Source: a virus
IMG/VR virus record: IMGVR_UViG_3300033153_006809
Location: 1 to 59,973 of that record
Reading direction: 5' to 3' (one strand)
Length of the DNA: 59,973 nucleotides
Shown here: positions 29,656 to 47,669 of the stretch, in pieces
How positions within the stretch are numbered: the first letter of the stretch is position 1
How the letters are laid out: each line of letters starts with the position of its first letter
Program-made: the position numbers and the translations under genes
The notes under the pieces: generated by a model
What the model was told of the DNA's origin: nothing
The model's input: only the letters and a program-made list of their open reading frames with translations
The model's database searches: none

Positions 29656-30060
29656 ATGGTAGATAAAAAAGTGGCAATAGTAGTAAAAATAGAGTATGAA
29701 ATTGATGATAATAGAGAAAGAGTATGGACAGCGTATATTATGGCATTTTCACAAGATGAAGCTGTTGAGTATCTTGCAAAATTTCTGAAGAAAACAATAA
29801 AGGTTACCTCAGTAGGCATGGAGGCACCAAGAATTGACGCCATAACAAGTGAAGTAAGAGAAACAATAACAGGTAAACCAAAAAAGAAAAAAGCAAATGT
29901 AGAACCAAAGTTAGATGGTTTTAAAAATCTTCAAAACGCTAGAGAACAAGCTTTGAAAGATCTAAAAGATCAAAATGTTGGTACAGAACAAAAAGAAGAA
30001 AAACCAACTGAAAAGAAAAAACCAACTATTAGTAAATCTTTGAATATAAAGAAGAAATAA
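29656..30060 (+). CDS. Hypothetical protein with lysine-rich tail
   Basis: 134 residues. The N-terminal 70 form an alpha/beta domain (VAIVVKIEYEIDDN, FSQDEAVEYLAKFLKK). The rest is disordered and lysine/glutamate-rich with KKP repeats (TEQKEEKPTEKKKP). AGGAGGG gives a strong start. A basic tail behind a small fold fits a nucleic-acid-associated protein; unknown otherwise. Confidence 0.55.
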   Translation: MVDKKVAIVVKIEYEIDDNRERVWTAYIMAFSQDEAVEYLAKFLKKTIKVTSVGMEAPRIDAITSEVRETITGKPKKKKANVEPKLDGFKNLQNAREQALKDLKDQNVGTEQKEEKPTEKKKPTISKSLNIKKK

Positions 30061-30914
30061 TGATAGGAACATATAACATAGAAAAAAATATGGTTCATAA
30101 AATATCAGATATAATGGATGTTTATGAATTTTCTACAGACGATGTTGAATTCCCAGAAATTGATGGTATACTTATAGATTACATAAGTAAAGATAATTAT
30201 AAAGAATGGGTATATCAAGCGGCATTAATAGAAAAATATGTTAAAAAAACCAAAACAATAATATTTGATAGATATCTCTCTATAACAAACAAAGAGTTTG
30301 ATTGGTTAAAGAAATTTAATGTAACATTCTTTGAGCCAGCTATAAACAATAGACGGGATTTTCAATATTTGCCATATTGGGTAGATAACATAGAAATAGA
30401 TTGGTCATATGATATAAAAAAGAGTATACATCTAGCATATACTCATAATAATATGGAAGACAGACTAAAATATTTTGAAAAATATTATAAACAATATGCT
30501 ATGTTATTTCCTGATAAAAAAGTATGTTATTCTAGTAACATATTGAATGAAAAAAAAGTAAAAGACTATGAAAACAATAACATGATTTTTTATAAATCCA
30601 TTGATTATTCTAATGTATTATATAGTATATCAATAGATAATAAAAAGAATTATGAGATTGGATATCTGGATGAAAGCGTATTTAAGGCTTTAAAATGTGG
30701 ATGCGTGCCACTATTACCAAGTGAACATAAATATTTTCATGCTTTATTTGGAAATCTTGTTGTTGATAGTATAGAAGACATAGATTATTTAACATCAACA
30801 CCAGATTTAAATTGTGTCTTTATTGAAGATATATTAAAAAATCTTAATACGCTTTATCCAGAATTTTTGATAGATAATGTTGCAAAAGTATTAATAAATT
30901 GTTTAAAGGAGTGA
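30060..30914 (+). CDS. Glycosyltransferase-like protein (GT-B type C-terminal motif)
   Basis: 284 residues. The C-terminal third has EIGYLDESVFKALKCGCVPL followed by HKYFHALFG, the pattern of the donor-binding half of GT-B enzymes (E-x-F-K-A-L-x-C-G-x-V-P). The N-terminal half is less clear (YWVDNIEIDWSYD). It is on the plus strand, the first sugar-related gene seen, and ends just before three small genes and an epimerase. Donor and acceptor unknown. Confidence 0.5.
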   Translation: MIGTYNIEKNMVHKISDIMDVYEFSTDDVEFPEIDGILIDYISKDNYKEWVYQAALIEKYVKKTKTIIFDRYLSITNKEFDWLKKFNVTFFEPAINNRRDFQYLPYWVDNIEIDWSYDIKKSIHLAYTHNNMEDRLKYFEKYYKQYAMLFPDKKVCYSSNILNEKKVKDYENNNMIFYKSIDYSNVLYSISIDNKKNYEIGYLDESVFKALKCGCVPLLPSEHKYFHALFGNLVVDSIEDIDYLTSTPDLNCVFIEDILKNLNTLYPEFLIDNVAKVLINCLKE

Positions 30915-30918
30915 ATTT

Positions 30919-31239
30919 GTGGAAAAAATAGATATAACAATAGGTAATAAAATGACAATAAATACTCAGAATTATTCTAGTATTCAGCCTAATGTACAAC
31001 TAACAGTAAATGGTGTATCAACAGAAAGACTGGCTGAAGTTAAAGAGGCGATGAATAATATACTGGGTGTTTTTATGGCCGAAGAAATTTGTGATCTGAG
31101 TGGGATGATGGATACAATAAAAACTAATGGACTTGGAGAAGTAATTAAAAGATTCGAAAATCCTGATATGATTGAAAATATGAAAATTAGTTTACAAAAG
31201 TCTCTTGATGTTATACAATATACAATAGAAAGTGCATAA
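30919..31239 (+). CDS. Small hypothetical protein
   Basis: 106 residues starting at GTG behind GGAGTGA. A beta N-terminus (IDITIGNKMTINTQ, VQLTVNG) is followed by a helical half (RLAEVKEAMNNIL, DMIENMKISLQKSLDVIQY). Two-part architecture but no family recognised. Confidence 0.55.
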   Translation: MEKIDITIGNKMTINTQNYSSIQPNVQLTVNGVSTERLAEVKEAMNNILGVFMAEEICDLSGMMDTIKTNGLGEVIKRFENPDMIENMKISLQKSLDVIQYTIESA

Positions 31240-31257
31240 TAGAGAAAGGAGATTATA

Positions 31258-31530: not shown

Positions 31531-31712
31531 ATTATTTTAGTAAAACGAAATTTGATAGTATAAAAGGAATTAGAAAAGGTATAATGAGCCTTGGTATACA
31601 TCAGTTTATACAAAAGAACAAAGACAATAAAGAGTTTACTGAAAAAGAAAATGATATGAGACTAGAGAGGATGGGGTTTAGTGAAGAAAAATATTTTAAT
31701 AACAGGGGTTAA
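31527..31712 (+). CDS. Small basic hypothetical protein
   Basis: 61 residues from the ATG at 31527 (overlapping the previous TGA and with GAAGAGA upstream); a longer in-frame version from 31497 would run deep into the previous gene. Basic start (NYFSKTKFDSIKGIRKG) and a helical, charged end. It overlaps the epimerase start by 32 nt. Confidence 0.5.
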   Translation: MNYFSKTKFDSIKGIRKGIMSLGIHQFIQKNKDNKEFTEKENDMRLERMGFSEEKYFNNRG

Positions 31713-32505
31713 TGGATATATAGGATTAAATTTATCTAATTACCTTATTAGAAATGGATATAATGTTTCTGGTATTGATAAGGTATTTGGTAATCCAGCA
31801 GAATTATTAACCGGATCAAATACCTTATATATTGATGCTATAGTTCACTTAGCTGCTCTATCAGGCATTAAGGCATGTGAGGATAATTTTGAAGAATCTA
31901 TAATAGATAATATTTCATCTGCTTTTAATATTTTTAATTTATCACATAAGTTTAGTACACCTGTTATATTCTTATCATCACAAGCGGCAAAAGATCCAAA
32001 ATCTAGTATATACGCAATGATGAAAAGAACAATAGAAATCCAAGCCGAGATGTTGAATAGAAAAACAGACTCAGATATAAAAGTATTGAGGTTGACTAAT
32101 ATATATGGTGGTGTTAGTTATCTTGAAAAAAAGAACACCGTAGTTAAGAAATTTATTGAGGCATATAAGAACAAGAGACAGATAATTATAGATGGTGATG
32201 GGTCACAGACCAGAGATTTTATACATGTTGATGATGTATGCGAATATATAATGAGATGCATTAGGTTTGATTCTGGTATAAAAATACTAGAGCCAGTAGA
32301 TATAGGAACTGGTGAACAAACAACAATAAATGAATTAGCAAGAATGTTTGATAATTGTAATGTAGAGTATGACACAGATTCCAGATCAGTAGGTGTGGAT
32401 ACTAACTATGCTGATATAACAAAGGCTGTTGAGATATTTGAGTATAAAGCAATAAATAGGTTAGAAGAATATATAGACGAAATATTAAATAAAGAAAGGA
32501 ATTAG
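31681..32505 (+). CDS. NAD-dependent sugar epimerase/dehydratase (extended SDR)
   Basis: 274 residues starting at GTG. The Rossmann motif TGVNGYIG lies at residues 8-15, the IVHLAALSG strand near 59, the catalytic Tyr-Lys in YAMMK (about 110-114), and the GDGSQTRDFIHVDDV substrate-domain signature near 180-194. It converts nucleotide sugars, most often by 4-epimerisation or 4,6-dehydration. It is short for the family (usually 310-340). It lies on the opposite strand from the main sugar block but only 220 bases from it, so it probably feeds the same pathway. Confidence 0.85.
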   Translation: MKKNILITGVNGYIGLNLSNYLIRNGYNVSGIDKVFGNPAELLTGSNTLYIDAIVHLAALSGIKACEDNFEESIIDNISSAFNIFNLSHKFSTPVIFLSSQAAKDPKSSIYAMMKRTIEIQAEMLNRKTDSDIKVLRLTNIYGGVSYLEKKNTVVKKFIEAYKNKRQIIIDGDGSQTRDFIHVDDVCEYIMRCIRFDSGIKILEPVDIGTGEQTTINELARMFDNCNVEYDTDSRSVGVDTNYADITKAVEIFEYKAINRLEEYIDEILNKERN

Positions 32506-32510
32506 AACTC

Positions 32511-32753
32511 ATGTTTGATGATATTTTTAAAGGTACGGACTTTGGTGATATAAAAGATAAAGAAGAAGATAAGGTAATTGAAAATGCTAATGAAAAAGAT
32601 ATTTGGCATACTGGTCAAAAACCAGATGTTTGGTCAGTGGTACAAGATGAATTTTGGGATCTTGATGATTTAGATGAAGATGAAGATGAATATTCTAAAG
32701 AGGAAACGAGTTCTGAAAAACCAACTAGTGGTTTATTTGATGATATTTTTTGA
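32511..32753 (+). CDS. Small acidic protein with the same FDDIF motif at both ends
   Basis: 80 residues, strongly acidic (DLDDLDEDEDEYSKEE), with MFDDIFKGT at the very start and GLFDDIF at the very end. Identical short linear motifs at both termini, joined by a disordered acidic linker, suggest a bivalent docking peptide. Acidic tails with F-D-D-x-F-type ends recruit partners in phage replication proteins, such as the gp32 tail. That link is inference; no family is recognised. Confidence 0.55.
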   Translation: MFDDIFKGTDFGDIKDKEEDKVIENANEKDIWHTGQKPDVWSVVQDEFWDLDDLDEDEDEYSKEETSSEKPTSGLFDDIF

Positions 32754-33420
32754 CTAATGGTAGTATAAAATCTTCACGAACTCTATTATATTTTATAGTA
32801 TAATCATTGTTGTCGCCAGAAGAAATATCATCTGGTGTTGAAATAACTTTAAATGTTGCTGAAGGGCAAGGTATTCCATATATACCTTGCCCTAAACATT
32901 TTATAAGAAAGGCCCAATCAAGTAGCCGTTTATATTTATTATCAGTAACCAATCCAACTTTTTCTATAATTTCTGTTGAATACAGTGAATTAGAGCTTAT
33001 GTAATTTGCTTGTAGAAGTTTTTTTGGATCAAAAGGAATTGCTGGAAAATCATGATCTACATATCCTGTGTACTTAAAAGATGCATAGGCATATCCAATA
33101 ATAACATCACTTCTAATAGAATTATTTTCTAATGTATTATATAATCTATCTAACGTATGTCTTCCTAAATCAATATCCCTATCAAGAAAAAATATATAAG
33201 GTGGTAGTTCGCCAACTCTTTTTTTATACCAATCAATACTATTAAGATGGTTCATTGGTATATTATTATTACTAGAACAAGACAACCATGTATGAGGTAC
33301 ATCATTTCTTTTTAGTGTTTTTTTGGTTATTTTACTTATTTTATGTGATGTTAGTAGTGGTGTTAACACTAATATTTCTGCATTCTCATGTTTTTTTAAA
33401 ACTTTAACATCATACTCCAT
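32725..33420 (-). CDS. Glycosyltransferase-like protein (GT-A)
   Basis: 231 residues from the ATG at 33420, preferred over 33483 because AAGGA is upstream and the longer form would overlap the next gene by 74 nt. The start ENAEILVLTPLLTSH resembles a GT2-like first strand, and FFLDRDIDLG provides the D-x-D metal site. The C-terminal half has LLDWAFLIKCLGQG. A perfect 12-bp inverted repeat (32863-32893) lies inside the gene. Its end overlaps the convergent acidic-protein gene by 29 nt. Confidence 0.55.
   Translation of the reverse strand: MEYDVKVLKKHENAEILVLTPLLTSHKISKITKKTLKRNDVPHTWLSCSSNNNIPMNHLNSIDWYKKRVGELPPYIFFLDRDIDLGRHTLDRLYNTLENNSIRSDVIIGYAYASFKYTGYVDHDFPAIPFDPKKLLQANYISSNSLYSTEIIEKVGLVTDNKYKRLLDWAFLIKCLGQGIYGIPCPSATFKVISTPDDISSGDNNDYTIKYNRVREDFILPLVKKYHQINH
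32863..32893. other. Perfect 12-bp inverted repeat near the convergent gene ends
   Basis: AGGGCAAGGTAT (32863-32874), loop TCCATAT, ATACCTTGCCCT (32882-32893). It lies inside the 3' part of the glycosyltransferase gene, 110 nt past the stop of the rightward operon. A bidirectional transcription stop for the rightward operon is possible, but neither strand has a proper T run. Confidence 0.65.
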
Positions 33421-33829
33421 TCTTTTTTCCTTTTGGTAAACGATATATTTTTTTCTTCTTTGATGATTTAGTATATGCTTCAATTTTTATTAGAGCATTA
33501 TATCTCATATTTGCTCTCCATCTCCACATTCCATCCTCTACACACTTATTTCTATATCTTTTATCAACTGATTTTTTAACATCATGAGATAACAGACCAT
33601 ATCTCATTAATTTATAAAAGGCATCATGTTCTGCTGAAGCTTGTTGACTTGATTTAGTATCAAACACACCACTAGACCCATCCCACGCATATCCTTTTTT
33701 TAAAATTAATGTACCATCTTCTTTTAATATTATCCATTTTGTTTCTATATAATTTGCCGGTAACACACCAGTTGATGCTGTATAATCTTCTTCTAATTGA
33801 TATTTAAAACCCCTTTTATATGATATCAT
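33410..33829 (-). CDS. DUF1353-like phage protein
   Basis: 139 residues. The centre (KGYAWDGSSGVFDTKSSQQA followed by HDAFYKLMRYG) matches the DUF1353-type phage/prophage pattern of G-x-x-x-D-G-x-S, then A-x-x-H-D-x-x-Y. The tail is very basic (SKKKKIYRLPKGKK). These proteins often sit near lysis or tail genes; their function is unknown. It is an unrelated insertion within the sugar block. Confidence 0.6.
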   Translation of the reverse strand: MISYKRGFKYQLEEDYTASTGVLPANYIETKWIILKEDGTLILKKGYAWDGSSGVFDTKSSQQASAEHDAFYKLMRYGLLSHDVKKSVDKRYRNKCVEDGMWRWRANMRYNALIKIEAYTKSSKKKKIYRLPKGKKNGV

Positions 33830-34632
33830 TTGTTCCCTGTTTTATAGATAGTTTTTAACATATCTTCAAATTTATCTTTCAATAGATTATATGTGGCTGG
33901 ATTATGTGCGACATATAAGTTTTTATTTTTAATTATCTCATTTACTATATCACCTTTAAAAAATCTAAGACTTGTTTGAAATTCCTCAGTAATAGGTTTT
34001 CCCATATATCCCATAAAATTATTTGCTATATAAAATAAACCAACATCCCCATGCATATCTATTTTTTTAAATACTTTCTGCCACATTACTTCTTCTGTCT
34101 TATATTTCTTATATACTTCTTTTATAAAATTAGAATTAAATATAACTATTGTTTGTGATAATCTAGATGGCAATTTCTTTATCTTCATATTATCATATTT
34201 TATCACTTTTGTAAACTCTAAAGGTGGGGTATCTATATTAACAAATGGAGTTATAAAACTCCATTTATCTTTCATCTTCTCATTATATACTGGAAGAAAA
34301 TCTCTGAAAATAAACATATCATTATGTAATAGATATACTTCATCATATCCAATTTCATAATAATACTTATACATAGAAAACATACCTATAATCTCACAAC
34401 AATGAAACTCTCTGTTTAAAGGTACAAAATCCTGTCTATGACAATCATAAAATATATAACCATGCTCTTTTGAATACTCTTTTAATTTTTTAGATTGCTT
34501 TTGATTCTTATTACCAAACGTAGATATACCAATATCTATACTATCTTTATAAACAAATTTTATACTTTTCAAACAGTTCTTTATTCTGGGTAAATGTGAA
34601 TCAAGCCCACAAATAACAAATATTCTTTTCAA
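33826..34632 (-). CDS. Glycosyltransferase-like protein
   Basis: 268 residues if started at the TTG at 34632, which overlaps the upstream stop (TTGA) and has GGAGAAAG just ahead; an ATG at 34656 without a good Shine-Dalgarno is the alternative. A first strand RIFVICGLDSHLPRIKNCLK is followed by the acidic site YLLHNDMFIFRDFLP. The length and order of motifs fit a GT-A enzyme acting on a nucleotide sugar. The exact family is uncertain. Confidence 0.5.
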   Translation of the reverse strand: MKRIFVICGLDSHLPRIKNCLKSIKFVYKDSIDIGISTFGNKNQKQSKKLKEYSKEHGYIFYDCHRQDFVPLNREFHCCEIIGMFSMYKYYYEIGYDEVYLLHNDMFIFRDFLPVYNEKMKDKWSFITPFVNIDTPPLEFTKVIKYDNMKIKKLPSRLSQTIVIFNSNFIKEVYKKYKTEEVMWQKVFKKIDMHGDVGLFYIANNFMGYMGKPITEEFQTSLRFFKGDIVNEIIKNKNLYVAHNPATYNLLKDKFEDMLKTIYKTGNK

Positions 34633-35261
34633 ACTTTCTCCAATATAAGTAAACAAATATCATCTACTTTACAATCATAACCTATTATTTTATATTCTTT
34701 ATATTTTTTTACCTTCTCTATTTCAGATTTTGCCCAATTAGAAAGTTGTTTATTTTTACTTTCTAATGATCGGGTTTGGAATAATAATAAAGCACCTGGA
34801 TTTAACTTATTTTTCAATTCTTTTAAATATAAATCAATAGACCAATGAAACCCTATAGAAATAATACTATATACTATATCAAATTTAACTTTAGGTAATT
34901 GTTCCTTTTCATAATTGATTAAAACCAAATTTTTTAATCCATTACTATTACAATACTCTTTTGTAGCATCTAATGAATTATAATACACACCTTTTGACCC
35001 AACATTAACACCACCAACTGTTTTATTACCACTATCACCATCTAATAAATAAAATTTAGTATCTATCCAAAAGAGTTTTTTAAAAATATACACAGAACCT
35101 CTACCCAACCCAGCACCCAATTCAAGAACATTTTTAGGATGTATATCTTTTAAACGATCTATCATCATATCAAGAATTTTTGACTCTTTGTATGCTTTAA
35201 AATCATTTAAGGTATGCAACTTCACATATCTTTTAGTTTTTTCTGTAAAAGTCAATTCCAT
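34629..35261 (-). CDS. SAM-dependent methyltransferase
   Basis: 210 residues. Motif I LELGAGLGRGSVYIF lies near residues 45-59, an acidic loop FYLLDGD near 74-80, and FDIVYSIISIGFHWSID near 126-142, all typical of class I methyltransferases. It lies within the sugar block between an epimerase and a transferase, so an O-methyltransferase acting on a sugar of the glycan is likely. The substrate is inferred from context only. Confidence 0.75.
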   Translation of the reverse strand: MELTFTEKTKRYVKLHTLNDFKAYKESKILDMMIDRLKDIHPKNVLELGAGLGRGSVYIFKKLFWIDTKFYLLDGDSGNKTVGGVNVGSKGVYYNSLDATKEYCNSNGLKNLVLINYEKEQLPKVKFDIVYSIISIGFHWSIDLYLKELKNKLNPGALLLFQTRSLESKNKQLSNWAKSEIEKVKKYKEYKIIGYDCKVDDICLLILEKV

Positions 35262-35262
35262 A

Positions 35263-36252
35263 TTACATTACTCTAAAATCATAACCATTTTTTATTTCAT
35301 CTTCATAAAAAGTAATCAAATCATCAATAGTTTCCTCTACAAGAAATCTTGGTTCCCATCCAACAAATTTATGTATTTTATCTGTATATGGTATTTTATC
35401 AATTGCTTCTGCAAACAAAGGGCCATGAATTTCTTTTGGATCAATATAAATTATTTCACATTTCTTTGTATACCTTTCATTGATTTTCTTCACTACCAAA
35501 TATGCGAGGTCATTTATTGTCATTCTATTTTTAACATTACCTATGTTCCAAATTTCATTTATATTTTTAGAATTTAAAATTTGTAATATAGCTTCACATA
35601 TATCACGAACATCTGTAAATGCTCTTTCTTGTTCACCATCTCCAAATATAGTTATAGGCTGATCTGTTAGTGATGCAATTATAAATCTTGGAAGAACAAA
35701 ACCACCATCTGGTCTTTGTCTTGGCCCTGCGACATTAAAAGGACGAATAATATGATATTTTAATCTCTCATCAACTTTAGCTTTATTTACAACAGCTATC
35801 TCTGATGTCATTTTACCTGCGCCATATTCAGTTCTTACTTGATATACACCTGGATATACTTTTTGGCTATCTTCTTTTAATAATCCTGTGTGACCATACA
35901 CCTCTGAAGTAGAAATATCAATAAACATTGCCCCTGTTCTTATACAATAATCTCTAACTTCAAGTGTATCATTTAAAATTATTTTCGCCATTTCTCCAGA
36001 ATATTTCAATATACCCGATGGCCCAACAAACGAAGCCAAATGAAACACAACATCAATATCATCTGGAAAATATTTTACAGCATCACCAGTATTATCAATT
36101 ATAACTTCACATTTATCAGAAAACATATCCTCTGAAACAGAATTACTAATTTTATTATCTACAATAATAATTTCTATACCTTGATCTAAAAGCATATCAA
36201 CTAAATTAGAACCTATAAAACCCAAACCTCCAGTTACTACTACTTTTTTCAT
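35263..36252 (-). CDS. NAD-dependent nucleotide-sugar epimerase/dehydratase
   Basis: 329 residues from the ATG at 36252 (AAGGA at 9 nt). The Rossmann motif TGGLGFIGSNLVD is at 7-19, FHLASFVGPSG near 70-80, a catalytic YGAGK near 143-147, RPFNVAGPRQRPDGG near 172-186, and FGDGEQERAFTDVRD near 206-220. All are standard for extended SDR enzymes such as UDP-glucuronate decarboxylase and UDP-glucose 4-epimerase. Full length for the family. Substrate unknown. Confidence 0.88.
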   Translation of the reverse strand: MKKVVVTGGLGFIGSNLVDMLLDQGIEIIIVDNKISNSVSEDMFSDKCEVIIDNTGDAVKYFPDDIDVVFHLASFVGPSGILKYSGEMAKIILNDTLEVRDYCIRTGAMFIDISTSEVYGHTGLLKEDSQKVYPGVYQVRTEYGAGKMTSEIAVVNKAKVDERLKYHIIRPFNVAGPRQRPDGGFVLPRFIIASLTDQPITIFGDGEQERAFTDVRDICEAILQILNSKNINEIWNIGNVKNRMTINDLAYLVVKKINERYTKKCEIIYIDPKEIHGPLFAEAIDKIPYTDKIHKFVGWEPRFLVEETIDDLITFYEDEIKNGYDFRVM

Positions 36253-36926
36253 ATATCCCATTCCTTATAAATTTGGAAATAGTTATCACTAACCAACTCT
36301 TTTAAATAGTTTCCAAATTTATCATTCAATATTTTATGAACGTTATTATTTATTCCACTTAAAGCACTTCTCATCATATTGTTATTTATTTTATTTGAAT
36401 CTTTTTTTGCGTATTCAAATCTAATTATTTTATTTTTTAATTTTACATGATCCTCAACAAAACGATTCCAAAGACTAGCATACCATTCAACAGCTTTTTT
36501 GCTATTCAAACCAACACCAAGTTTTTCTAATGTTTCTGGATGTCTTCTTGTCATAAACGAAGCCATAGCATTTGTAGGATGCCTTACAAGACAAATAACA
36601 CTTATCTTGTTATCTAAAAAGAAATTACCCAACAAAGATATAGATCCACCTAAAACACAATATGTATTTGTTTTATATAGTTTATTTATATACCTAATAA
36701 AATTTTCTTCAATTGTTAAGTCAGCATTGAATTTTATAAAATTCTTAGTTCTCTTATTGAAAACTTTTAATTGTTCTTCATTTGGTCTATGCTTTAAAGT
36801 ATAGTCTTGCCACTTTGCCCATTCTCCTATGCCTTTAAATGCTATATCTGGTCTAGAATGTGCATTTAATCGACTTCCAAGATATGATGAAGCATGTGCA
36901 CCAGGTGCTATTATTATATTTTCCAT
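36249..36926 (-). CDS. Sulfotransferase-like P-loop protein
   Basis: 225 residues. The N-terminal IIIAPGAHASSYLGSRL is in the place of the PAPS 5'-phosphosulfate loop. VICLVRHPTNAMASFMTRRH (about 122-141) matches the 3'-phosphate-binding motif (R-x-P-x-x-x-x-x-S) of sulfotransferases. No glycosyltransferase or methyltransferase motifs. A role in sulfating the glycan fits the neighbours. Confidence is limited because the first loop is an atypical variant. Confidence 0.55.
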   Translation of the reverse strand: MENIIIAPGAHASSYLGSRLNAHSRPDIAFKGIGEWAKWQDYTLKHRPNEEQLKVFNKRTKNFIKFNADLTIEENFIRYINKLYKTNTYCVLGGSISLLGNFFLDNKISVICLVRHPTNAMASFMTRRHPETLEKLGVGLNSKKAVEWYASLWNRFVEDHVKLKNKIIRFEYAKKDSNKINNNMMRSALSGINNNVHKILNDKFGNYLKELVSDNYFQIYKEWDI

Positions 36927-38127: not shown

Positions 38128-38128
38128 A

Positions 38129-38713: not shown

Positions 38714-39423
38714 AATTTATAATATTCCTTTATTTCTTTATGACCCATATGTAATATTATTTCATCACCTATACCACGATGTTCTCTACAAACATTCCAT
38801 TGTGGCGGAAGTATATGAGGAGTAAACTTATAACCATAATCCCACATAGTACGCCAAAATGATACAGTACCTCTTCCTTCTTTTTTTCTTCTTATACAAT
38901 AATCATTCAAAAATTTTCTTGCTATTTCATTATCTCTATGAAAACTCATTACACCTGTGTTTGCAGATAAACCAAAACCACCAGATTCATCTAATTGTTT
39001 ATCACTATCCAATCCTTTTAGTGTATCTTTGCGAACAACATATCTTGGATTTAATGGTGTACATAATCCAAATTTTTTAGTAAGTGGAATTATATATTTA
39101 ATATTAGGTGAGTATACATAAAAATCACTATCCATAGCAATAGATATCTCACTTGTGGATTCTAAAAGACCGTTATGTTTATAGTAATTACTTGACCTCC
39201 ATGCACTTCTTTTATTATTTTTAGCGATAAGCGGCACGATTTTTAATTCAAAATTCGGTATATTTAAATTCATATCCACATTAGAATATAAAGTAATTTT
39301 GGCTTTTGGAAAGTATTTTATAAATGTTGAAACTGTTGGATCAAGTCTAGAGAAACCATTCAAATTACCTCCACCACAATTTCTCCTTGCTATACCAAAT
39401 TCAGCTAAAATAAGATTTATCAT
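38710..39423 (-). CDS. Glycosyltransferase-like protein (GT-A, DxD)
   Basis: 237 residues. ISIAMDSDFYVYSP holds the D-S-D metal-binding motif. Ahead of it, WRSSNYYKHNGLLES looks like the acceptor loop. The C-terminal HILPPQWNVCREHRGIGDEI followed by HMGHKE supplies a conserved W/H segment as in GT8-type enzymes. The N-terminus (LAEFGIARRNCGGGN) is unusual and lacks a typical first strand. The family call is by motif order. Confidence 0.55.
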   Translation of the reverse strand: MINLILAEFGIARRNCGGGNLNGFSRLDPTVSTFIKYFPKAKITLYSNVDMNLNIPNFELKIVPLIAKNNKRSAWRSSNYYKHNGLLESTSEISIAMDSDFYVYSPNIKYIIPLTKKFGLCTPLNPRYVVRKDTLKGLDSDKQLDESGGFGLSANTGVMSFHRDNEIARKFLNDYCIRRKKEGRGTVSFWRTMWDYGYKFTPHILPPQWNVCREHRGIGDEIILHMGHKEIKEYYKL

Positions 39424-39424
39424 A

Positions 39425-40168
39425 TTACTCCATTATTTTCTTATAGATATTTTCCATAGTTCTTTTCATTTTACCTTTGAAATGAAGAATTTTATAATCA
39501 TTATCTTCTAATTTTTCCCACATTTCTTTATCAGCTTGCTTTATTGTTATTCTATCTGGTGCGCTGGGACAATAATTATATTTTGAACCTAAATCAATAA
39601 CATTACAATCAAAAGGCATTGATCCTTTATTATTATGCATAGCGCATAGAAAATCCTGATCCACCCACCACCATTTTCTTGGATTTCTATCTCGATTCCA
39701 TTTATTTCTAAAACCCACAAGTGGTCGCCATCTTGGATTATATATTTGTTCTATATAAAAATTCAACCATTTCTTTGATTTATCATTCCATCTCATACCA
39801 CAAGTGCCGGCATTTACTGAATAATGATAATCATAATGTCTTGATGTATAACAGACATCAAATTCTTTAATATCAAATATACTAAAGATATCATCTTTTA
39901 TTAACATATCAACATCTAATATATATATTCTATCACCCTCTTGGAACTTCTTTGATTCTCTTTGAACTCTTTCTATTTTACATGTTTGTATTCTATTATT
40001 CCATTCAATATCAGGTATATCAAAATATATAACATCATCCCTTTTAGCAAAATTACCATTGTGATTTAATATAACATTACAATCATTATATTTTTTTAGA
40101 GTATCCACCATCATATTAAAATACTTTTCTAAGTTTTTATCACATATAGTACATACCCAATTAGTCAT
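39425..40168 (-). CDS. Glycosyltransferase-like protein (nucleotide-diphospho-sugar transferase fold)
   Basis: 247 residues. IYILDVDMLIKDDIF contains the D-x-D donor site. NAGTCGMRWNDKSKKWLNFY and WWWVDQDFLCAMH give the downstream acceptor and second acidic motif of GT8/GT77-like enzymes. Final HFKGKMK resembles the conserved H-x-x-G-x-x-K. AAGGA precedes the ATG. Sugar and linkage unknown. Confidence 0.7.
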   Translation of the reverse strand: MTNWVCTICDKNLEKYFNMMVDTLKKYNDCNVILNHNGNFAKRDDVIYFDIPDIEWNNRIQTCKIERVQRESKKFQEGDRIYILDVDMLIKDDIFSIFDIKEFDVCYTSRHYDYHYSVNAGTCGMRWNDKSKKWLNFYIEQIYNPRWRPLVGFRNKWNRDRNPRKWWWVDQDFLCAMHNNKGSMPFDCNVIDLGSKYNYCPSAPDRITIKQADKEMWEKLEDNDYKILHFKGKMKRTMENIYKKIME

Positions 40169-40177
40169 TTAATTTCC

Positions 40178-40849
40178 TTAGAATGGTTGTATATTGAAAT
40201 ATTTTTTTGATATATTCTTGATTTCATTATCAAATACACTTCTATAACTTTTATTATTTGTATATAATTTCCATCTTTCACTAGTTTTCATTTTACTAGC
40301 CTTACCATGATATTTTTTCATATCAAAACTACTACCTGCTCTACCTTCTATATCATCATATCCATTATCAGTAAATTCAAAACCTAAATTAAGAATCAAA
40401 TTTTTTCTATAACCTTTATTTTTACACCACTCATTGTAATTTATAACCTCACCATTATATAATATATGATTTTTCCATATATCTTTATTCCATCTTGGAT
40501 TGCCATAAGATTTCATTCTACTTGATATTAAATTGAATGGATCTCTAACAATTGTTGATGTTATTTCTTTTGCATCAAATAGAAAATTTTTTCTTTCTCT
40601 TAAATCATAAACTGGTTTATCTTCAAAATTAAATACTACTAAATTATGTTCTTCTATATTATATTTACTACCAACAATATGTTTTTGAAATTTTTTATTA
40701 TATGTATAAAATTCATTAGCTAACAATATTTCATCATTTTTATATAAACAACTATTAAAATGTATAGCACTTAATGATTGCTCACAAATCCAATTTATAA
40801 TAGCATGTTGTCCGCTTCTTTTCATAGAAAAAACAAATAGAATAATCAT
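40178..40849 (-). CDS. Sulfotransferase-like protein
   Basis: 223 residues. SMKRSGQHAIINWICEQ (residues 8-24) is a close fit to the PAPS 5'-phosphosulfate loop of bacterial and phage sulfotransferases. TSTIVRDPFNLISSRMK (about 97-113) fits the 3'-phosphate loop. The remaining sequence ends FDNEIKNISKKYF. Likely transfers sulfate from PAPS to a sugar; the second candidate sulfotransferase in the block. Confidence 0.68.
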   Translation of the reverse strand: MIILFVFSMKRSGQHAIINWICEQSLSAIHFNSCLYKNDEILLANEFYTYNKKFQKHIVGSKYNIEEHNLVVFNFEDKPVYDLRERKNFLFDAKEITSTIVRDPFNLISSRMKSYGNPRWNKDIWKNHILYNGEVINYNEWCKNKGYRKNLILNLGFEFTDNGYDDIEGRAGSSFDMKKYHGKASKMKTSERWKLYTNNKSYRSVFDNEIKNISKKYFNIQPF

Positions 40850-41667
40850 TTCTTATTTTTTATATAACTTAATACTTTATTTGCTGACCGACTCCAAGAA
40901 AACTCACTAGCTTTATTTATAGCATTTTGAATATCCATATCATCAATAGCTTTTTTCAACACATCTATTATTTTATCTTTCTTGATATCAAATTTTGTAT
41001 GATCTAATTTTCTGAAATCTTTATTGACTAAATATCCCCTCGGAATAACTATATGAGAGCCAGACATTGCTGATTCAATTATTGAAAAACCACAAGATTC
41101 TGGATGAGTAACACAAAATATATTTGCTTTTCTATATAATATAACAACTTCCGGCCACGGTATATTTATAGGTAGTATTTTAAATTTAATTATGAAATCC
41201 TTTTGTAATTTTTTTATAGCGTCTTTATATAAATCAATTGATTTATTATAATGAAAATGTCTAGGATTATAATGAGGGTGGTCTATCAAAATATTTATTA
41301 CACCATCTTCTTTTTCTGGATAACAATAGTCTATATGAGCAGCCCACCATATTTTATTCATATTTTTTATCATTGAAAATTGTATCTCATTTCTTGCTGG
41401 TGGTGTAGTTTGATTGGCTATAGAATACATACGTTTATTAATAAGTATTCTATATAATTTTTGATTGAAACTTTGAAGTTTGGATAACTTAGCTAAAGAT
41501 ATGATAACATCATGTTGTGGTAAACCTTGAATGTTTTTTTCTCTGAAATCAATTGTTACAACTTCATTTTCTTTTTCAAATTCTTTTTTAAAAAAATGAC
41601 TACAGATTCCATGAAAATTTACAACTTCATCAATATTAAAATTTCGACCTATAAGCAGTATTTTCAT
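40846..41667 (-). CDS. Glycosyltransferase (GT-B, group-1-like)
   Basis: 273 residues. The C-terminal THPESCGFSIIESAMSGSHI (about 195-214) is the group-1 E-x7-E donor motif, and LYRKANIFCVTHP leads into it. The N-terminal half starts KILLIGRNFNIDEVV. A short member of the family (usually 350-400), missing part of the N-terminal acceptor domain. Overlaps both neighbours by 4 nt. Confidence 0.7.
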   Translation of the reverse strand: MKILLIGRNFNIDEVVNFHGICSHFFKKEFEKENEVVTIDFREKNIQGLPQHDVIISLAKLSKLQSFNQKLYRILINKRMYSIANQTTPPARNEIQFSMIKNMNKIWWAAHIDYCYPEKEDGVINILIDHPHYNPRHFHYNKSIDLYKDAIKKLQKDFIIKFKILPINIPWPEVVILYRKANIFCVTHPESCGFSIIESAMSGSHIVIPRGYLVNKDFRKLDHTKFDIKKDKIIDVLKKAIDDMDIQNAINKASEFSWSRSANKVLSYIKNKK

Positions 41668-42557
41668 ATGTTTAAAACTTCTTTAAACATAGTTCTATAA
41701 TTCTCTGCCATAATTTTCCATGTCCATGATTGCTCTATTGTTTTTCTAGCTTCATTTCCCATTTCTTGTAATAGATGTCTATCATTATTTAACAGCATAA
41801 TTTTTTTAGTATATTGATTTATATTTCTTTCTTTCAATAAAAAACCATTGACACCATCATTTATAAGTTGTGGCATATTTCCTATTCTATTACTAATTAA
41901 AACTTTACCACATGAAGCGGCTTCTAATGCTGGATTTGGTGTACCATCTGTTATACTGGCAACAAGCAAAATATTTATTTTACTATAAAAATCTACAATA
42001 TTATTTAATTTATCTGCATTTTTCCATGTTTTATTATTAGAAACCAATATAGCTTTTGCTCTTTGTACCGATGGTACAACAAAATTTTCAAAACCTTTAT
42101 CTGGAATAGATTTTCCAATAAAACCAACCTTAATCTTATTACTCTTTATCATTGAAGAAGGCTTAAATAATTTCTCATCAACACCATTTGGTGTATAATA
42201 AATATTATTATGGCTTTCATTCTTTTTCAATAGATTTAAAAATTGTTGAGAATTAGCATGCATACCTATAACTCTATCAGCAAGTGATCCTTTATTTTTT
42301 ATATGTTTCCTATATGCTGGCATTCCAGTAATACCTGTTATTATTCTATCTTTATCTATACCGTTTTTTTCTAAAAATTTTATATGAGTTGGTGTGTAAT
42401 TCATATATAAATCATAAGTATTTTTTACTTTATTATGTCCTTGTGTATAAAAAACATCAACTTTGAACTCATCAGACAAATATTTCTGTATATATTTAGA
42501 TTTGTATCCCCATGCCCAATTTGGAACATCGGCTATAAGTAATATTTTATACATCAT
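41664..42557 (-). CDS. Glycosyltransferase family 4
   Basis: 297 residues. The start KILLIADVPNWAWGYKSKYI, middle YYTPNGVDEKLFKP and KVGFIGKSIPDKGFENF, then DGTPNPALEAASCGKVLISN (E-x7-E equivalent) and NDGVNGFLLKE are in the canonical GT4 order. Enzymes of this type transfer sugars from nucleotide donors with retention. Complete but short N-terminal domain. Confidence 0.85.
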   Translation of the reverse strand: MMYKILLIADVPNWAWGYKSKYIQKYLSDEFKVDVFYTQGHNKVKNTYDLYMNYTPTHIKFLEKNGIDKDRIITGITGMPAYRKHIKNKGSLADRVIGMHANSQQFLNLLKKNESHNNIYYTPNGVDEKLFKPSSMIKSNKIKVGFIGKSIPDKGFENFVVPSVQRAKAILVSNNKTWKNADKLNNIVDFYSKINILLVASITDGTPNPALEAASCGKVLISNRIGNMPQLINDGVNGFLLKERNINQYTKKIMLLNNDRHLLQEMGNEARKTIEQSWTWKIMAENYRTMFKEVLNI

Positions 42558-43491
42558 TTATCATCCTCATAAATTCTATAGCTCTAATTTTTGCAGTATG
42601 ATTTGAATGTATCATATCAAATCCATTATCAGATATGTGTTTTATATCATCCGATTTTAACCATTTTTCTACTAGGTTCTTTACATTTCCTTTTACTTCA
42701 ACCATGTTTTCATTTGGTTTAAACCCAAGCTCACCCATTTCAGGTATATAATCAGAAAATAACACAGATCTACAAGATGGTATTTCAAAAAATTTTAATA
42801 CAACATAATTTACTAATGAACTACAAGTAAATGTTATCTTAGAACTATTTATCAGTTTAGCATAGTCAACACTAACTGGCCATTTTTTTACTTTTTTTAT
42901 AGTTTCTAGTGGTCTATCTATACTTGTATAGTATGATTGACCATTAAGTTTTCTATGTATTTTATTTCTTAATTTATATATTCCATTACCACCTTTACGA
43001 CCACCTTTACTACCTATCATCAACGCATCTATTTTCTTTTCTAATTTATAATCTTTAAATATAAGAGGATCTATAGAATGTGGAAGCCATCTTATTTTAG
43101 ATTTTTTTAGATGTGGATGTCTTTGAAGAATACCAGTTTTATATCTGGTAAAGAAAATATCAAATCCATCATCAAGATATTTTTTTGAAAATTGTGGATT
43201 TGGTCCGTGCTGATCTTCTATTAGTAACCCTTTAGGCACATCAATTTTATTCCATTTTTCATTAGTAAATGCAAACGGTGCATCAACCATAATAAAATCA
43301 AATTCATTAGCAAATTTAACATCAACTACATCATCATCAATTACTTTAAATCTTTGATATTTACTAGCTAACATATTTATTTTCTTACGAATAAAAGAAA
43401 CATCAGATAATTTCGCAACCTCTTCCTGTAAAGGTTCAAATATTCTTGAAACTCTATTACTTCTATCTACAGTAACCCATAATATTTTCAA
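42547..43491 (-). CDS. Glycosyltransferase (GT-B, CgeB-like)
   Basis: 314 residues. LLIEDQHGPNPQFSKKY and DIFFTRYKTG are followed by RWLPHSIDPLIFKDY and DALMIGSKGGRKGG. The C-terminal VVLKFFEIPSCRSVLFSDY with GELGFKPNENMVEV matches the DUF3880/CgeB-type group-1 pattern of F-E-x-P-x-C-x-x-x-L. Similar proteins occur in spore-coat and phage glycan loci. It overlaps the upstream start by 4 nt. Confidence 0.75.
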   Translation of the reverse strand: MKILWVTVDRSNRVSRIFEPLQEEVAKLSDVSFIRKKINMLASKYQRFKVIDDDVVDVKFANEFDFIMVDAPFAFTNEKWNKIDVPKGLLIEDQHGPNPQFSKKYLDDGFDIFFTRYKTGILQRHPHLKKSKIRWLPHSIDPLIFKDYKLEKKIDALMIGSKGGRKGGNGIYKLRNKIHRKLNGQSYYTSIDRPLETIKKVKKWPVSVDYAKLINSSKITFTCSSLVNYVVLKFFEIPSCRSVLFSDYIPEMGELGFKPNENMVEVKGNVKNLVEKWLKSDDIKHISDNGFDMIHSNHTAKIRAIEFMRMINDV

Positions 43492-44315
43492 ATTCGTTTA
43501 CCCCACTTTTTAAAAAATCTTTTACCACTATTAATTGCATGTTGTTTATTATGTCTTATAGATTCATATTCTATTGTGTTATCATTATTACTATTGATTG
43601 CATAATAATCTTTTATAGCCAATATTGCCAGTTTCCATCCAGCTTTTCTCATCTGCATACAAAAATCAATATCACCCCAACCAATAAAATATCCTGGATC
43701 AAGATCGGATGTTTCAAATACCTCTCTTCTCATTACCATAGTTGCTGATCCCATTGCATCAACATAACCAAATGGTGATTTTGGTTTTCTATATATCATA
43801 TTTTTATTACCAATTTCCCATGCATTTAGATTAGGATAACACCATATATCAACAGCACCTATCTCCGGATTATCTTCAAGAATAGAAATTTGAGCTTCTA
43901 TAGAACCTGGTGGGAAATACATATCATCATCTGTAGTCATTATATAAGGTGTATTAAAATCTAAAGCTTTATGAACCATATCGTGTCGTGGTATACCAGT
44001 TCCAAAATTACCTTCATTATAAAAAATTTTGGATTTATTAAAATTTTTATTTGAATACTCTTCTATAAGTTGTTTCTGTCTTTTACTTATTTTCTCAGAT
44101 CCTTGTACATTTAATGATAAATTTGATTTTATATATATATGTTGTCCCCAGTGATTCATCATAGATAACAATTTATCTATTCTATATAAAGATAACATAG
44201 CAACACTAATCATTGGTTTCCTTTTATTCAGAACTCTTCTAACGGTATCACAATTAAACCCATCCCATAATTCACATATTTTCTTTTCAATATTTATTTT
44301 AGATATTTTGGTCAT
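43488..44315 (-). CDS. Glycosyltransferase family 2
   Basis: 275 residues. MISVAMLSLYRIDKLL (about 34-49) is the first strand, YIMTTDDDMYFPPGS (about 124-138) carries the D-D-D metal site, and GYFIGWGDIDFCMQMRKAGW (about 207-226) is the E/W-D-x-D-x-x-x-R segment typical of GT2. An N-terminal 30-residue extension precedes the catalytic domain. Likely inverting transferase. Confidence 0.85.
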   Translation of the reverse strand: MTKISKINIEKKICELWDGFNCDTVRRVLNKRKPMISVAMLSLYRIDKLLSMMNHWGQHIYIKSNLSLNVQGSEKISKRQKQLIEEYSNKNFNKSKIFYNEGNFGTGIPRHDMVHKALDFNTPYIMTTDDDMYFPPGSIEAQISILEDNPEIGAVDIWCYPNLNAWEIGNKNMIYRKPKSPFGYVDAMGSATMVMRREVFETSDLDPGYFIGWGDIDFCMQMRKAGWKLAILAIKDYYAINSNNDNTIEYESIRHNKQHAINSGKRFFKKWGKRI

Positions 44316-45126
44316 TATTTCTTCTTAAAGCCTCTGTTTTCATTTTTTGAGTCCATTTAATATTACTTTTGTATTTCATAAAATCAATATATTCTGCATT
44401 TTCATATCCCCACATATCCCCAATTTCTTTTAATATATTATCCCAATCCTTTTTTGATAATAATAACATATCCCATATTATTAATTGTTTTTCACTTATT
44501 CTTGGTATATTCTTTTCATGCCATAAATGAAACACCACAGCATTTATATAAGAAAAACTATACCCATATATTTTTAGTTTTATAAGAAATGAATTATCAG
44601 GACCACCCCAAGTTCCTTTAAAATCCTCTGGTATACCTTTGACTCTATAAAATATATCTTTTGGGCAATAAAAAACACCACCAGCAGCGCCCATCATAGA
44701 TGGAGTTTTTATTTTTTCAATTTTTATATCTTTATTGTTACCATTTATAAGTTCTTTAGTAGATTCTTTACTTATATATAGCATTTCATTCCACGCCACA
44801 CATGGAATATCAACATTTTCAATACTATCCCACCAATTTTTACTGATTAAAATATCAGCATCCATTAAAACCAATCTATCATTAGTGGATAATAATCTCA
44901 CACCTCTATTAAGTGACCATCCACGATGCATTATACCATCATACTTATCAAATCTATATTTTATATCTTTTGGTAAATTGTTTAGATATTGTTTAGTACC
45001 GCTTTCATGAATACATATTTCAACTTCATCAGCATTATATGTTCTCAATGATTCTATACATTTCATTAAAAGCATATATCTATTCCGTGTATGCATGTAT
45101 GGTATAACAACAGATATTGGTATCAA
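44299..45126 (-). CDS. Glycosyltransferase family 2 (start unclear)
   Basis: 275 residues if TTG at 45126 is used. The first strand ISVVIPYMHTRNRYMLL, then LVLMDADILISKNWWDS (D-x-D) and GTWGGPDNSFLIKLKIYGY with VVFHLWHE are in GT2/GT7-like order. An ATG 12 bases upstream would give a typical start (MKKIL-IPIS) but is out of frame by one base across a run of six As, so a homopolymer deletion or slippage may hide the real start. No clear Shine-Dalgarno precedes the TTG. Confidence 0.72.
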   Translation of the reverse strand: MIPISVVIPYMHTRNRYMLLMKCIESLRTYNADEVEICIHESGTKQYLNNLPKDIKYRFDKYDGIMHRGWSLNRGVRLLSTNDRLVLMDADILISKNWWDSIENVDIPCVAWNEMLYISKESTKELINGNNKDIKIEKIKTPSMMGAAGGVFYCPKDIFYRVKGIPEDFKGTWGGPDNSFLIKLKIYGYSFSYINAVVFHLWHEKNIPRISEKQLIIWDMLLLSKKDWDNILKEIGDMWGYENAEYIDFMKYKSNIKWTQKMKTEALRRNNDQNI

Positions 45127-45180
45127 AATTTTTTCATATCAAGTATAACTTTATCTCCATTAACTTTTGAAATCACAAAT

Positions 45181-46344
45181 TTACCTCCACTTTATTTTTG
45201 GCATCACAACACTTCTTAAAGGTTCTAATCTCTTTTTATAAGGTAGAAGATAATTAAACATATATTCTATTTCTTGTTTAATAGTTCTAGTTGGGACATA
45301 CCCCATTTTTTTCAATATATCAGTTTTATAATTATAGTAGTGATTACCAGTATACTCATTTCTTGGTGAATCTATATGCTGTTTTTTAACATCTAATTCA
45401 AATTTATCACCAACTTCAACCACCATATCAGCAATATCATTCATTGAGTGCCATTCTGATAATTGATTCCATACTTGAACTCTACCTTGATCTGGCTCAT
45501 TATTTACAGCTATCATTAGAGCCTGTATACTATCATTAAGTGATAAAAATCCTCTTTGATGATTTCCCTCTCCATATATTGTAAGTGGCTCACCAAGAAT
45601 AGATTGTATAACAAACCTATGTATTACTGTGCCTCCAGCTTCATCGCTATCTAATCTACTCCATAATTTAGATTTATCTATATCATCAGTATACATACCA
45701 AAAACAATAGATTGCATAACATCTGTACATTTCATTTGCCATGCTCTTGATATAAAATCAATTAAATATGTTGATGCGACTTTTGATGTATGATATATTG
45801 AACCAGAGCGACGTGGAAAAATCATTTCATTAGATATTCTATCTTTCCATTTCATTTTACAATATCCTTCATAGATAGGAATATTAGAATAATGATCATA
45901 TTCACCAGTTGTTCCTATAGTTATATAATGAGCATCTGGTAAATGCTCTTTCATCAACCATAAAACATTATTGGTTCCTATTATATTATTTGTTAATGTT
46001 ATATTAGCATGTTTGTGGGATTTTTGACTATATGGTGCGGAAGGTATATGTGCGAGATTTATTACAATGCTAGCATTGCTTTTCTCCATCATATATTCTA
46101 GAGGTTGTATATTATTAACAATATTAAACTCATAAAATAACACATCACCCATTGGTTTTAAAAAATGTCTTCTATATGGATCTATTTTTGTGGCGGATAT
46201 TGAATTCATATCCTCTCTAATCCACTTAGATCTCATATAATTATCAACTGCAAAAACTTTATATCCGGAATTTAGTAATCTTTGTATAAGAGCATTACCA
46301 ATATAGCCGTCGTAACCCAACAATATTACATTTTTTTCATTCAT
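45181..46344 (-). CDS. UDP-sulfoquinovose synthase-like epimerase (SQD1 family)
   Basis: 387 residues. The Rossmann motif LGYDGYIGNALIQRLLNSGY is at the start. The family order known from SQD1 is visible: PSAPYSQ, NIIGTNNVLWLMKE, IGTTGEYD (catalytic Thr/Glu), YHTSKV (Tyr-Lys pair), GEGNHQRGFLSLNDS, NQLSEWHSMNDIA, NHYYNYK. SQD1 converts UDP-glucose and sulfite to UDP-sulfoquinovose. The length matches SQD1 catalytic cores (about 390-400). It is the first gene of the sugar block on this strand. A plain epimerase of the same subfamily remains possible because the sulfite-binding pocket cannot be judged by eye. Confidence 0.82.
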   Translation of the reverse strand: MNEKNVILLGYDGYIGNALIQRLLNSGYKVFAVDNYMRSKWIREDMNSISATKIDPYRRHFLKPMGDVLFYEFNIVNNIQPLEYMMEKSNASIVINLAHIPSAPYSQKSHKHANITLTNNIIGTNNVLWLMKEHLPDAHYITIGTTGEYDHYSNIPIYEGYCKMKWKDRISNEMIFPRRSGSIYHTSKVASTYLIDFISRAWQMKCTDVMQSIVFGMYTDDIDKSKLWSRLDSDEAGGTVIHRFVIQSILGEPLTIYGEGNHQRGFLSLNDSIQALMIAVNNEPDQGRVQVWNQLSEWHSMNDIADMVVEVGDKFELDVKKQHIDSPRNEYTGNHYYNYKTDILKKMGYVPTRTIKQEIEYMFNYLLPYKKRLEPLRSVVMPKIKWR

Positions 46345-46357
46345 TCATTACACCTCT

Positions 46358-47150: not shown

Positions 47151-47165
47151 TTTTTCTTCACACTC

Positions 47166-47577: not shown

Positions 47578-47604
47578 AGCATGATCTCCTTTTGATTAAA
47601 TATT

Positions 47605-47663
47605 GGTCCCACCTACGTTACGAATCCCACCACACCTTGAGCCTCCACGATCACGGATTCACC
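47605..47663. other. GC-rich island in a non-coding gap
   Basis: 34 of 59 bases are G or C, in a genome otherwise near 30 percent or below. On the minus strand it directly follows the stop of the gene at 47670-48749 and stays open in that gene's frame for a further 18 codons (NNGESVIVEAQGVVGFVT). It could be a remnant coding end, an acquired fragment or a structured RNA. I could not fold it into a tRNA. Confidence 0.5.
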
Positions 47664-47669
47664 ATTATT

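Follow-up and report, generated by a model that had tools for sequence, protein, structure and literature searches.

A putative serotype-like glycan locus with a fixed frame and an exchangeable interior in a lineage of T4-like phages

Phage glycosylation is known mostly as the work of one or a few transferases, and the locus described here raises the question of what would be made, and on what acceptor, by a block of sugar-building genes of about 16 kb carried by an uncultured T4-like phage. The window that was analysed is the whole stretch of 59,973 nucleotides, to which all coordinates refer. A sequence-only reading had proposed a co-directional glycan pathway borne by a phage, and this proposal is supported: the open reading frames were found where it had placed them, the reading frames are intact and overlapping, and a tightly packed minus-strand run extends from 32725 to 46344, in which neighbours from 32725 to 45126 overlap or lie at most 9 bases apart. 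The run does contain a gap of 54 bases before the SQD1-like gene at 45181, and 30060 and 31681 have the opposite orientation (plus strand). The genes are as follows.

30060..30914, plus strand: frame gene of an unnamed family, kept in 7 of the 8 relatives compared (the region is absent from the partial contig of G001)
31681..32505, plus strand: frame gene, NAD-dependent nucleotide-sugar SDR of the epimerase/dehydratase family (PF01370, 7.8e-30); 38-45% homologues in seven relatives
32725..33483, minus strand: left frame gene (GT-L), glycosyltransferase-like by motif only, start uncertain (33429 or 33483); 72% identity in G001, 40-54% in seven others
33410..33829, minus strand: small protein within the run, phrog_1158 'tail assembly chaperone' (3.3e-9)
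33826..34656, minus strand: interior protein, glycosyltransferase-like by eye, no family match among Pfam and PHROG profiles
34629..35261, minus strand: interior SAM methyltransferase, weak (PF13489, 4.4e-5, under the curated cut-off)
35263..36261, minus strand: interior SDR, nucleotide-sugar epimerase/dehydratase (PF01370, 1.6e-40)
36249..36926, minus strand: interior protein with sulfotransferase-like motif ICLVRHPTNAMASF (motif only)
36926..37555, minus strand: interior SAM methyltransferase (PF13847, 7.1e-13)
37534..38127, minus strand: interior PIG-L/LmbE deacetylase with AHPDDE motif (PF02585, 1.9e-7)
38129..38713, minus strand: interior FkbM methyltransferase (PF05050, 2.3e-15; TIGR01444, 3.8e-24)
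38710..39423, minus strand: interior GT-A-like protein (DSD motif only)
39425..40168, minus strand: interior GT-A-like protein (DVD motif only)
40178..40849, minus strand: interior sulfotransferase-like protein (motif only); homologues in G002 and other viral contigs
40846..41667, minus strand: interior GT-B-like protein (PF00534, E 0.018; phrog_2518, 3.5e-11)
41664..42557, minus strand: GT1/GT4-type glycosyltransferase (PF00534, 6.4e-17); homologues in 6 of 8 relatives
42547..43491, minus strand: glycosyltransferase, Glyco_trans_1_2 (PF13524, 1.5e-8); homologues in G012 and G017
43488..44315, minus strand: GT2-type glycosyltransferase (PF00535, 1.7e-6); homologues in G012 and G017
44299..45126, minus strand: glycosyltransferase, galactosyltransferase N-terminal/GT2 (Glyco_transf_7C, PF02709, 1.3e-5); fused homologues in G012 and G017
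45181..46344, minus strand: right frame gene, SQD1/Agl3 family (UDP-sulfoquinovose synthase-like), full-length homology to SQD1
46358..47080, minus strand: endolysin (GH108, PF05838, 1.7e-18; PG_binding_3, PF09374, 4.6e-15), just upstream in the same direction

Profile searches of the block proteins bore out the proposed block and most of its enzyme families, with matches for the SDRs, for all three methyltransferases and the PIG-L deacetylase that had been named, and for four to five glycosyltransferases, but they left both proposed sulfotransferases and five other genes (30060, 32725, 33826, 38710 and 39425) without a family match. The families of 32725 and 30060 match nothing in Pfam or the PDB, and the term glycosyltransferase as applied to 32725 stays at the level of a motif. 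Where roughly ten glycosyltransferases had been counted, profiles give four (41664, 42547, 43488 and 44299) and the weaker 40846. The three proposed epimerases all match the Epimerase profile (31681, 35263 and 45181, the last at 2.1e-18), but 45181 belongs by homology with UDP-sulfoquinovose synthase and is not a plain epimerase. By its chaperone profile, 33410 does not count among the glycan genes of the run. A promoter scan gave 152 sites against 150 in shuffles, which is no excess, and the GC content of the cassette (26.8% against 29.0%) carries no clear foreign signal.

The two sulfotransferase assignments, 36249 and 40178, stand at the level of motifs. When the 5' P-loop-like and 3' RxxxxxxS motifs are compared, RSGQH...NW is invariant and RDPxN...S nearly invariant in the family of 40178, and 36249 carries LVRHPTNAMASF. 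Neither protein has a relevant Pfam match even at an E-value of 10, and hhalign of either against the true sulfotransferases of sibling phages gives below 1%, while two families of those true sulfotransferases, used as a positive control, match each other at 94%. The AlphaFold models, with pLDDT of 43 for 36249 and 39 for 40178, are too poor for a fold search. Sulfotransferase identity was thus left unproven after the Pfam, PDB and hhalign tests. Sulfotransferases recognized by Pfam and an APS kinase sit within the same locus of relatives, and the description of the pathway as sulfur-bearing holds for the lineage on account of these genes and the SQD1-like enzyme, but not for the two genes to which it had been attached in the window.

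The strongest sulfur signal in the window is the product of 45181, which aligns with plant SQD1 (1QRR) over its full length (residues 4-387, E 6.6e-64) and matches NF041015 at 2.6e-106, although its score of 355.9 bits falls under the NCBIfam equivalog cut-off of 575. It shares with Agl3, SQD1 and SqdB the GxxGxxG motif (G10/G13/G16), the Ser/Thr-Tyr-Lys triad of the SDRs (T145, Y184, K188) and E148 and Y149, all in its own numbering, the last two being Glu147 and Tyr148 in the Agl3/SQD1 numbering. It differs, in the latter numbering, by the substitutions H95N, E99H, R101P and M145T, and the [ST]MG signature of UDP-sulfoquinovose synthases (PMC8987622) reads TTG. All 80 cellular homologues compared have His95 and Met145, whereas 26 of them share with the phage enzyme a Pro in place of Arg101. 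Because H95N and M145T strike residues that are essential in Agl3 (PMC4388408), UDP-sulfoquinovose may not be the product, and sulfoquinovose as the core sugar is the least certain element of the account. The dN/dS ratios between the window phage and its closest relative, 0.13 for the SQD1-like gene and 0.16 for 32725, indicate that both genes are under constraint. A putative viral UDP-sulfoquinovose synthase has been reported earlier in a Mu-like virus (PMC7785012).

A quick tree, in which branches are long, groups the phage enzymes with the archaeal, Agl3-like sequences and not with those of cyanobacteria and plants (100 SH-aLRT). The archaeal host that this placement suggested was rejected because of the GH108/PG_binding_3 endolysin, which, as read from its domains, implies a peptidoglycan-bearing host. 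For the capsid of G001, the closest relative, the nearest group is Kyanoviridae (phage C48C1, 38%).

The organization of the locus across the lineage was compared in metagenomic records, most of which are fragments; those of G001, G012 and G014 stem from a study of Ace Lake. Scans with single proteins (UvsX and 40178) returned no relatives and alignment-based scans did; a first contig scan gave nothing, and a broader alignment gave 553. The SQD1-like gene was found in nine uncultured phages and at one contig edge, and in most of the nine the locus has the same framing genes and a differing interior. The frame genes 32725, 31681 and 30060 recur across relatives (dispersed in G009, G010 and G017), and the interior genes differ even between near relatives. 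In G001, the adjoining genes are 77-87% identical to those of the window phage and no common interior gene exceeds 44%. DNA identity of 83% extends as far as 45173, eight bases beyond the stop of the SQD1-like gene, after which nothing is common until 32743-33375 (77%). Genes shared at an identity of at least 50% number 7 of 12 in 45181-52082 as opposed to 0 of 16 in the interior (Fisher p 7e-4). The interior genes are thus replaced as a block between siblings while the SQD1-like gene stays. Modules are also shuffled, in that homologues of 42547, 43488 and 44299 occur in G012 and G017 and not in the nearest sibling, and G012 and G017 have fused multi-transferase proteins of 1012 and 994 aa.

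Among the 160 locus ORFs of at least 150 aa in the nine phages, none has two or more hydrophobic segments by hydropathy, whereas four or more occur in 80 of the 822 ORFs that surround SQD1 genes of cells. None of the 160 is a candidate membrane transporter, polymerase or oligosaccharyltransferase, and the nine loci offer no candidate flippase, initiating transferase, GtrA-like protein or phosphoglycosyltransferase, so that the proposed 'complete set' is not supported, although host components could substitute. Soluble glycosyltransferases could use host lipid-linked precursors, which are likewise cytoplasmic.

The reading that we prefer, with a probability of roughly one half, is that the locus is an exchangeable, serotype-like locus of a T4-like phage lineage whose enzymes act in the cytoplasm and most likely glycosylate virion proteins, the core of the glycan being conserved and its decorations exchangeable. 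Nucleotide sugars would come from the SQD1-like enzyme and the SDRs and be attached one by one by soluble glycosyltransferases of the cytoplasm; methylation, deacetylation and, in relatives, sulfation would be added to this. Assembly is probably cytoplasmic, because no locus ORF resembles a membrane transporter, polymerase or oligosaccharyltransferase, and the absence of membrane proteins favours, without proving, the virion over the secretion of a new surface polysaccharide. A virion protein would be the most likely acceptor because virions assemble in the cytoplasm and because recognition-type selection on a surface structure would favour swaps of decorations around a conserved core. Chloroviruses such as PBCV-1 offer a close likeness of this kind, with virus-encoded sugar enzymes, soluble and sometimes multidomain glycosyltransferases, cytoplasmic glycosylation of the capsid and a shared core with variable, strain-specific decorations (PMC7826918). 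They are, however, unrelated viruses of eukaryotic hosts whose product and acceptor are known, and no SQD1-type core enzyme was found described in the available portion of PMC7826918. Virion glycosylation in mycobacteriophages also employs phage glycosyltransferases. Known cases there involve one or a few genes, in contrast to the 15 or more here, which include genes for nucleotide sugars and methylation, joined in relatives by sulfur genes, and are swapped as a block. The mycobacteriophage enzymes modify capsid and tail proteins (Freeman 2023, as cited in PMC12619734).

The same genes might instead remodel the host envelope. The enzymes would then act at the cytoplasmic face on lipid-linked precursors of O-antigen, capsule or S-layer glycan, the host's own flippase, polymerase and ligase would export the product, and superinfection or the loss of progeny to debris would be blocked. 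This is possible, though on the unlikely side. The gene types resemble those of polysaccharide clusters, the locus follows immediately downstream of the endolysin gene in the same orientation, and cyanophages such as P-SSM2, a T4-like phage with a large glycosyltransferase/epimerase cluster, are known to carry LPS-type clusters; the present locus differs from these in its SQD1-like frame gene, its block exchange and its lack of a close isolate. Against such remodelling stand the lack of flippase, polymerase, GtrA-like and phosphoglycosyltransferase candidates in the nine phages and the need for wholesale swaps to follow host glycan types. An improbable alternative is that complex glycans are built on modified pyrimidines of the DNA as a defence against restriction. 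To our knowledge, this locus has more transferases than any known DNA-glycosylation system. A thymidylate-synthase-family gene (PF00303) is present in the window phage, G009, G010, G012 and G014, and adjoins the glycan locus in G009 and G010; G009 also has a dNMP kinase. An Asn selects dUMP in thymidylate synthase and an Asp takes its place in dCMP hydroxymethylases; the PF00303 proteins retain the Asn, which leaves their identification as dCMP hydroxymethylases unsupported, and the gene sits with NrdA in the window phage and G014 and is split by a frameshift in the former. A Tet_JBP search gave no match, but its controls were likewise silent. Glycan-decorated phage DNA, as in T4 with its glucosyltransferases, does resemble the present case in its phage glycosyltransferases with accessory enzymes (Pyle 2024), and complex glycans are known on phage DNA (Pyle 2024, cited in PMC12619734; Iyer 2013, cited in PMC10829341), but no dCMP hydroxymethylase signature was found here.

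Two further explanations would divorce the SQD1-like gene from its surroundings or deny the genes a joint function. Plant and cyanobacterial SQD1 serve sulfolipid, and a GT1-type gene resembling 41664 is often near the SQD1-like gene, as would be expected if the enzyme supplied the synthesis of SQDG for changes to the host's membranes and had nothing to do with the cluster beside it. The Agl3-like placement of the phage enzymes, their differences at invariant active-site residues and the position of the gene within a large multi-transferase block make this very improbable. Hardly credible is the remaining idea, of decaying cargo in the form of transient host-derived genes, which is compatible with the variation of the interior from phage to phage but at odds with the intact, overlapping reading frames, the fixed position and frame of the locus, the purifying selection on the frame genes and the fused multi-transferase proteins.

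Returning to the serotype-like reading, a more specific version of it is rather doubtful: that the conserved SQD1-like enzyme, which stays under purifying selection despite the replacement of His95 and Met145, has a product different from UDP-sulfoquinovose. This nucleotide sugar, such as a 5,6-ene or another C6 adduct, would form the constant core in a serotype system of phages whose siblings trade whole decorating sets. The lineage in any case provides a natural set of SQD1 homologues altered at residues thought to be essential. It appears to bear a whole interchangeable pathway in a fixed frame, like the serotype loci of bacteria, and if the glycan is on virions, it would allow the surface to be diversified by cassette exchange, with effects on adsorption, decay, grazing and recognition.

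The glycan block of the window (32725-46344, minus strand), whose genes are present and packed as the sequence-only reading described, with corrections, has a fixed frame and an exchangeable interior. Relatives were found by two alignment scans, one with the SQD1-like gene at the right end of the block (45181-46344) and one with gene 32725 at its left end. The SQD1-like gene is present in the window and in the relatives G001, G002, G009, G010, G011, G012, G014 and G017, and in part at one edge of the G006 contig; genes 32725, 31681 and 30060 recur in relatives holding those regions; G001, the nearest sibling, is without the 30060 region and has only a 27% match to 31681, which is probably a non-orthologue. 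The block lies between the frame genes in the window, G011, G012 and G014, and between the SQD1-like gene and 32725 in G001; the frame genes lie within about 20 kb of each other in G002 and are dispersed in G009, G010 and G017.

The DNA identity of 83% between the window and G001 stops at 45173, eight bases past the SQD1 stop, and the match resumes at 32743-33375. Identity of at least 50% is shared by 7 of the 12 genes in 45181-52082 versus none of the 16 interior genes (Fisher p 7e-4), the sole interior pair being a GT1 protein at 41-44%. Homologues of window genes 42547, 43488 and 44299 occur in G012 and G017, where they are partly fused (proteins of 1012 and 994 residues), but not in the closer G001. 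This pattern looks like module exchange rather than slow divergence. Other features of these regions are as follows (L-numbers denote pieces of viral contigs).

Window 47670-48749 (minus strand) versus L002:4203-5702 (G001): a second, smaller exchange between the endolysin and an adenine-methylase-like gene, with a 359-residue protein (phrog_1462) in the window and an unrelated 499-residue protein in G001
Window 33410-33829 (minus strand): a phrog_1158 "tail assembly chaperone" match within the glycan run
L120:13460-14212 (G012 25460-26212): an ORF with a lipoprotein-like product (MKNCVLLLFVLFFISCAS...), where the interior of the G012 block ends
L002:16425-17507 and L010:2877-4180 (G001), and L122 (G014): genes resembling an amino-sugar nucleotide pathway, namely a DegT aminotransferase, hexapeptide acetyltransferases and, at 57% identity in G014, a Gfo/Idh oxidoreductase

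An IMG/VR viral contig of 59,973 bases, the window is classed as linear (GC 28.6%). Among its products are baseplate and tail proteins, SbcC/SbcD-like subunits, a UvsX recombinase, a ribonucleotide reductase and an endolysin whose GH108 and PG_binding_3 domains indicate a host with peptidoglycan. Megablast of a 24-kb region of it against phage records gave no matches. Since the gp23-like capsid protein of G001 (IMGVR_UViG_3300035698_009562, 35,433 bases) is 38% identical to that of the Kyanoviridae phage C48C1, the two contigs are placed in a T4-like myovirus lineage without a close isolate. G009-G012, G014 and G017 are the contigs of L101-L104, L107 and L110. The IMG number of G002 (3300009509_001033, 69,803 bases) is that of a Mai Po metagenome (PMC6461988), and those of G001, G012 and G014 are of metagenomes that an Ace Lake (Antarctica) study used (PMC8542988), so that interiors differ among phages of one lake study.

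The protein encoded at 45181-46344 was one of three called epimerases; the SDR-type assignment stands, but the protein is a full-length SQD1 homologue rather than a plain epimerase. Its whole length aligns with plant SQD1 (E 6.6e-64), and the NF041015 model of UDP-sulfoquinovose synthase also matches it (E 2.6e-106). The protein is a member of the SQD1 family, and its binding of a nucleotide sugar and NAD is very probable. In mutagenesis of the UDP-sulfoquinovose synthase Agl3, the residues His95, Arg101, Met145, Tyr182 and Lys186 proved essential, and Glu147 as well as Tyr148 proved important (PMC4388408). The window protein keeps the Tyr, Lys, Glu, Tyr and Ser/Thr residues, whereas His95 is replaced by Asn, Arg101 by Pro and Met145 by Thr. 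Pro at 101 is tolerated, since it is found in 26 of 80 cellular homologues, but none of the 80 departs from His95 or Met145, and the protein is therefore not filed as a UDP-sulfoquinovose synthase. The change at His95 is common to the window, G001, G002, G011, G012 and G017, and that at Met145 to the window, G001, G012, G017, G009 and G010, with Leu there in G014. A dN/dS of 0.13 between the window and G001 shows purifying selection on the gene. A quick tree with long branches provisionally places the enzyme with archaeal, Agl3-like sequences (100 SH-aLRT). More distant SQD1 homologues (30-36%) occur in other viral contigs (L004-L009), and those of L005 and L006 adjoin a homologue of the window's ribonucleotide reductase.

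It is this gene, through its matches to SQD1 and NF041015, that suggests sulfur chemistry in the window, and not 36249 and 40178, whose reading as sulfotransferases is unproven: a Pfam search at E 10 returned no relevant family for either, and their profiles match the sulfotransferases of sibling phages at a probability below 1%, while two sulfotransferase families of those siblings, compared as a positive control, find each other at 94%. A 41% tblastn match to 40178 lies in a 458,813-base viral contig (L117:10001-10712), in a frame with 24 stops that reflects a frameshift, joined segments or another code. Profile search of the window found neither an APS kinase nor a sulfotransferase family; the relatives carry the following.

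Profile matches of sulfation genes in relatives
G002, APS kinase: PF01583, 2.6e-44
G002, two Sulfotransfer_3 proteins: 3e-13 and 4.6e-7
G001, two sulfotransferases: 1e-5 and 7e-7
G001, short APS kinase: 4e-17 (48% identical copy in G014)

Sulfotransfer_3 scores were also obtained in G009, G010 and G014. Because the PAPS that sulfotransferases use as donor is the product of APS kinase, and relatives have both kinds of gene, sulfation is well supported by gene content in the lineage, though not in the window itself.

The acceptor of the glycan is constrained by the absence of membrane enzymes. None of 160 locus ORFs of at least 150 residues in nine phages has two or more hydrophobic segments, compared with 80 of 822 ORFs with at least four around cellular SQD1 genes, so the locus seems to be without its own flippase, polymerase, oligosaccharyltransferase or polytopic initiating enzyme, which favours cytoplasmic assembly on an acceptor that is itself in the cytoplasm. 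The simplest acceptor of this kind would be virion proteins, and the exchange of decorations would be best explained by a surface structure; chloroviruses, which make a shared core with variable decorations in the cytoplasm (PMC7826918), provide the precedent. The lipid-linked precursors of the host are likewise cytoplasmic, however, and remodelling of the host envelope through them therefore retains about one chance in four. DNA is a less likely acceptor, because the thymidylate-synthase-family proteins retain the Asn typical of dUMP enzymes; a TET/JBP search gave no match, but its controls were silent as well. A frame break at an 11-base tandem repeat (two copies of ACTAGTCCATG, about 57110-57131) divides the window's own gene of the thymidylate-synthase family (56868-57655, minus strand) in two, through either a biological change or an assembly error, and G014 has an intact homologue of 263 residues adjoining NrdA.

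Very Ser/Thr-rich proteins (up to 81%) occur in G001, G009 and G010, which also carry sulfotransferases, and none was seen in the window; these proteins are possible glycan acceptors in the relatives. Ser-rich repeats, (SSSSSSE)n, lie near tail genes at L010:15735-18431 (G001 32735-35431) and also in G009 and G010. The locus of the window, with its fixed frame, its exchangeable interior and, as core enzyme, an SQD1-like protein of uncertain chemistry, is a real and informative variant of phage-encoded glycan synthesis.
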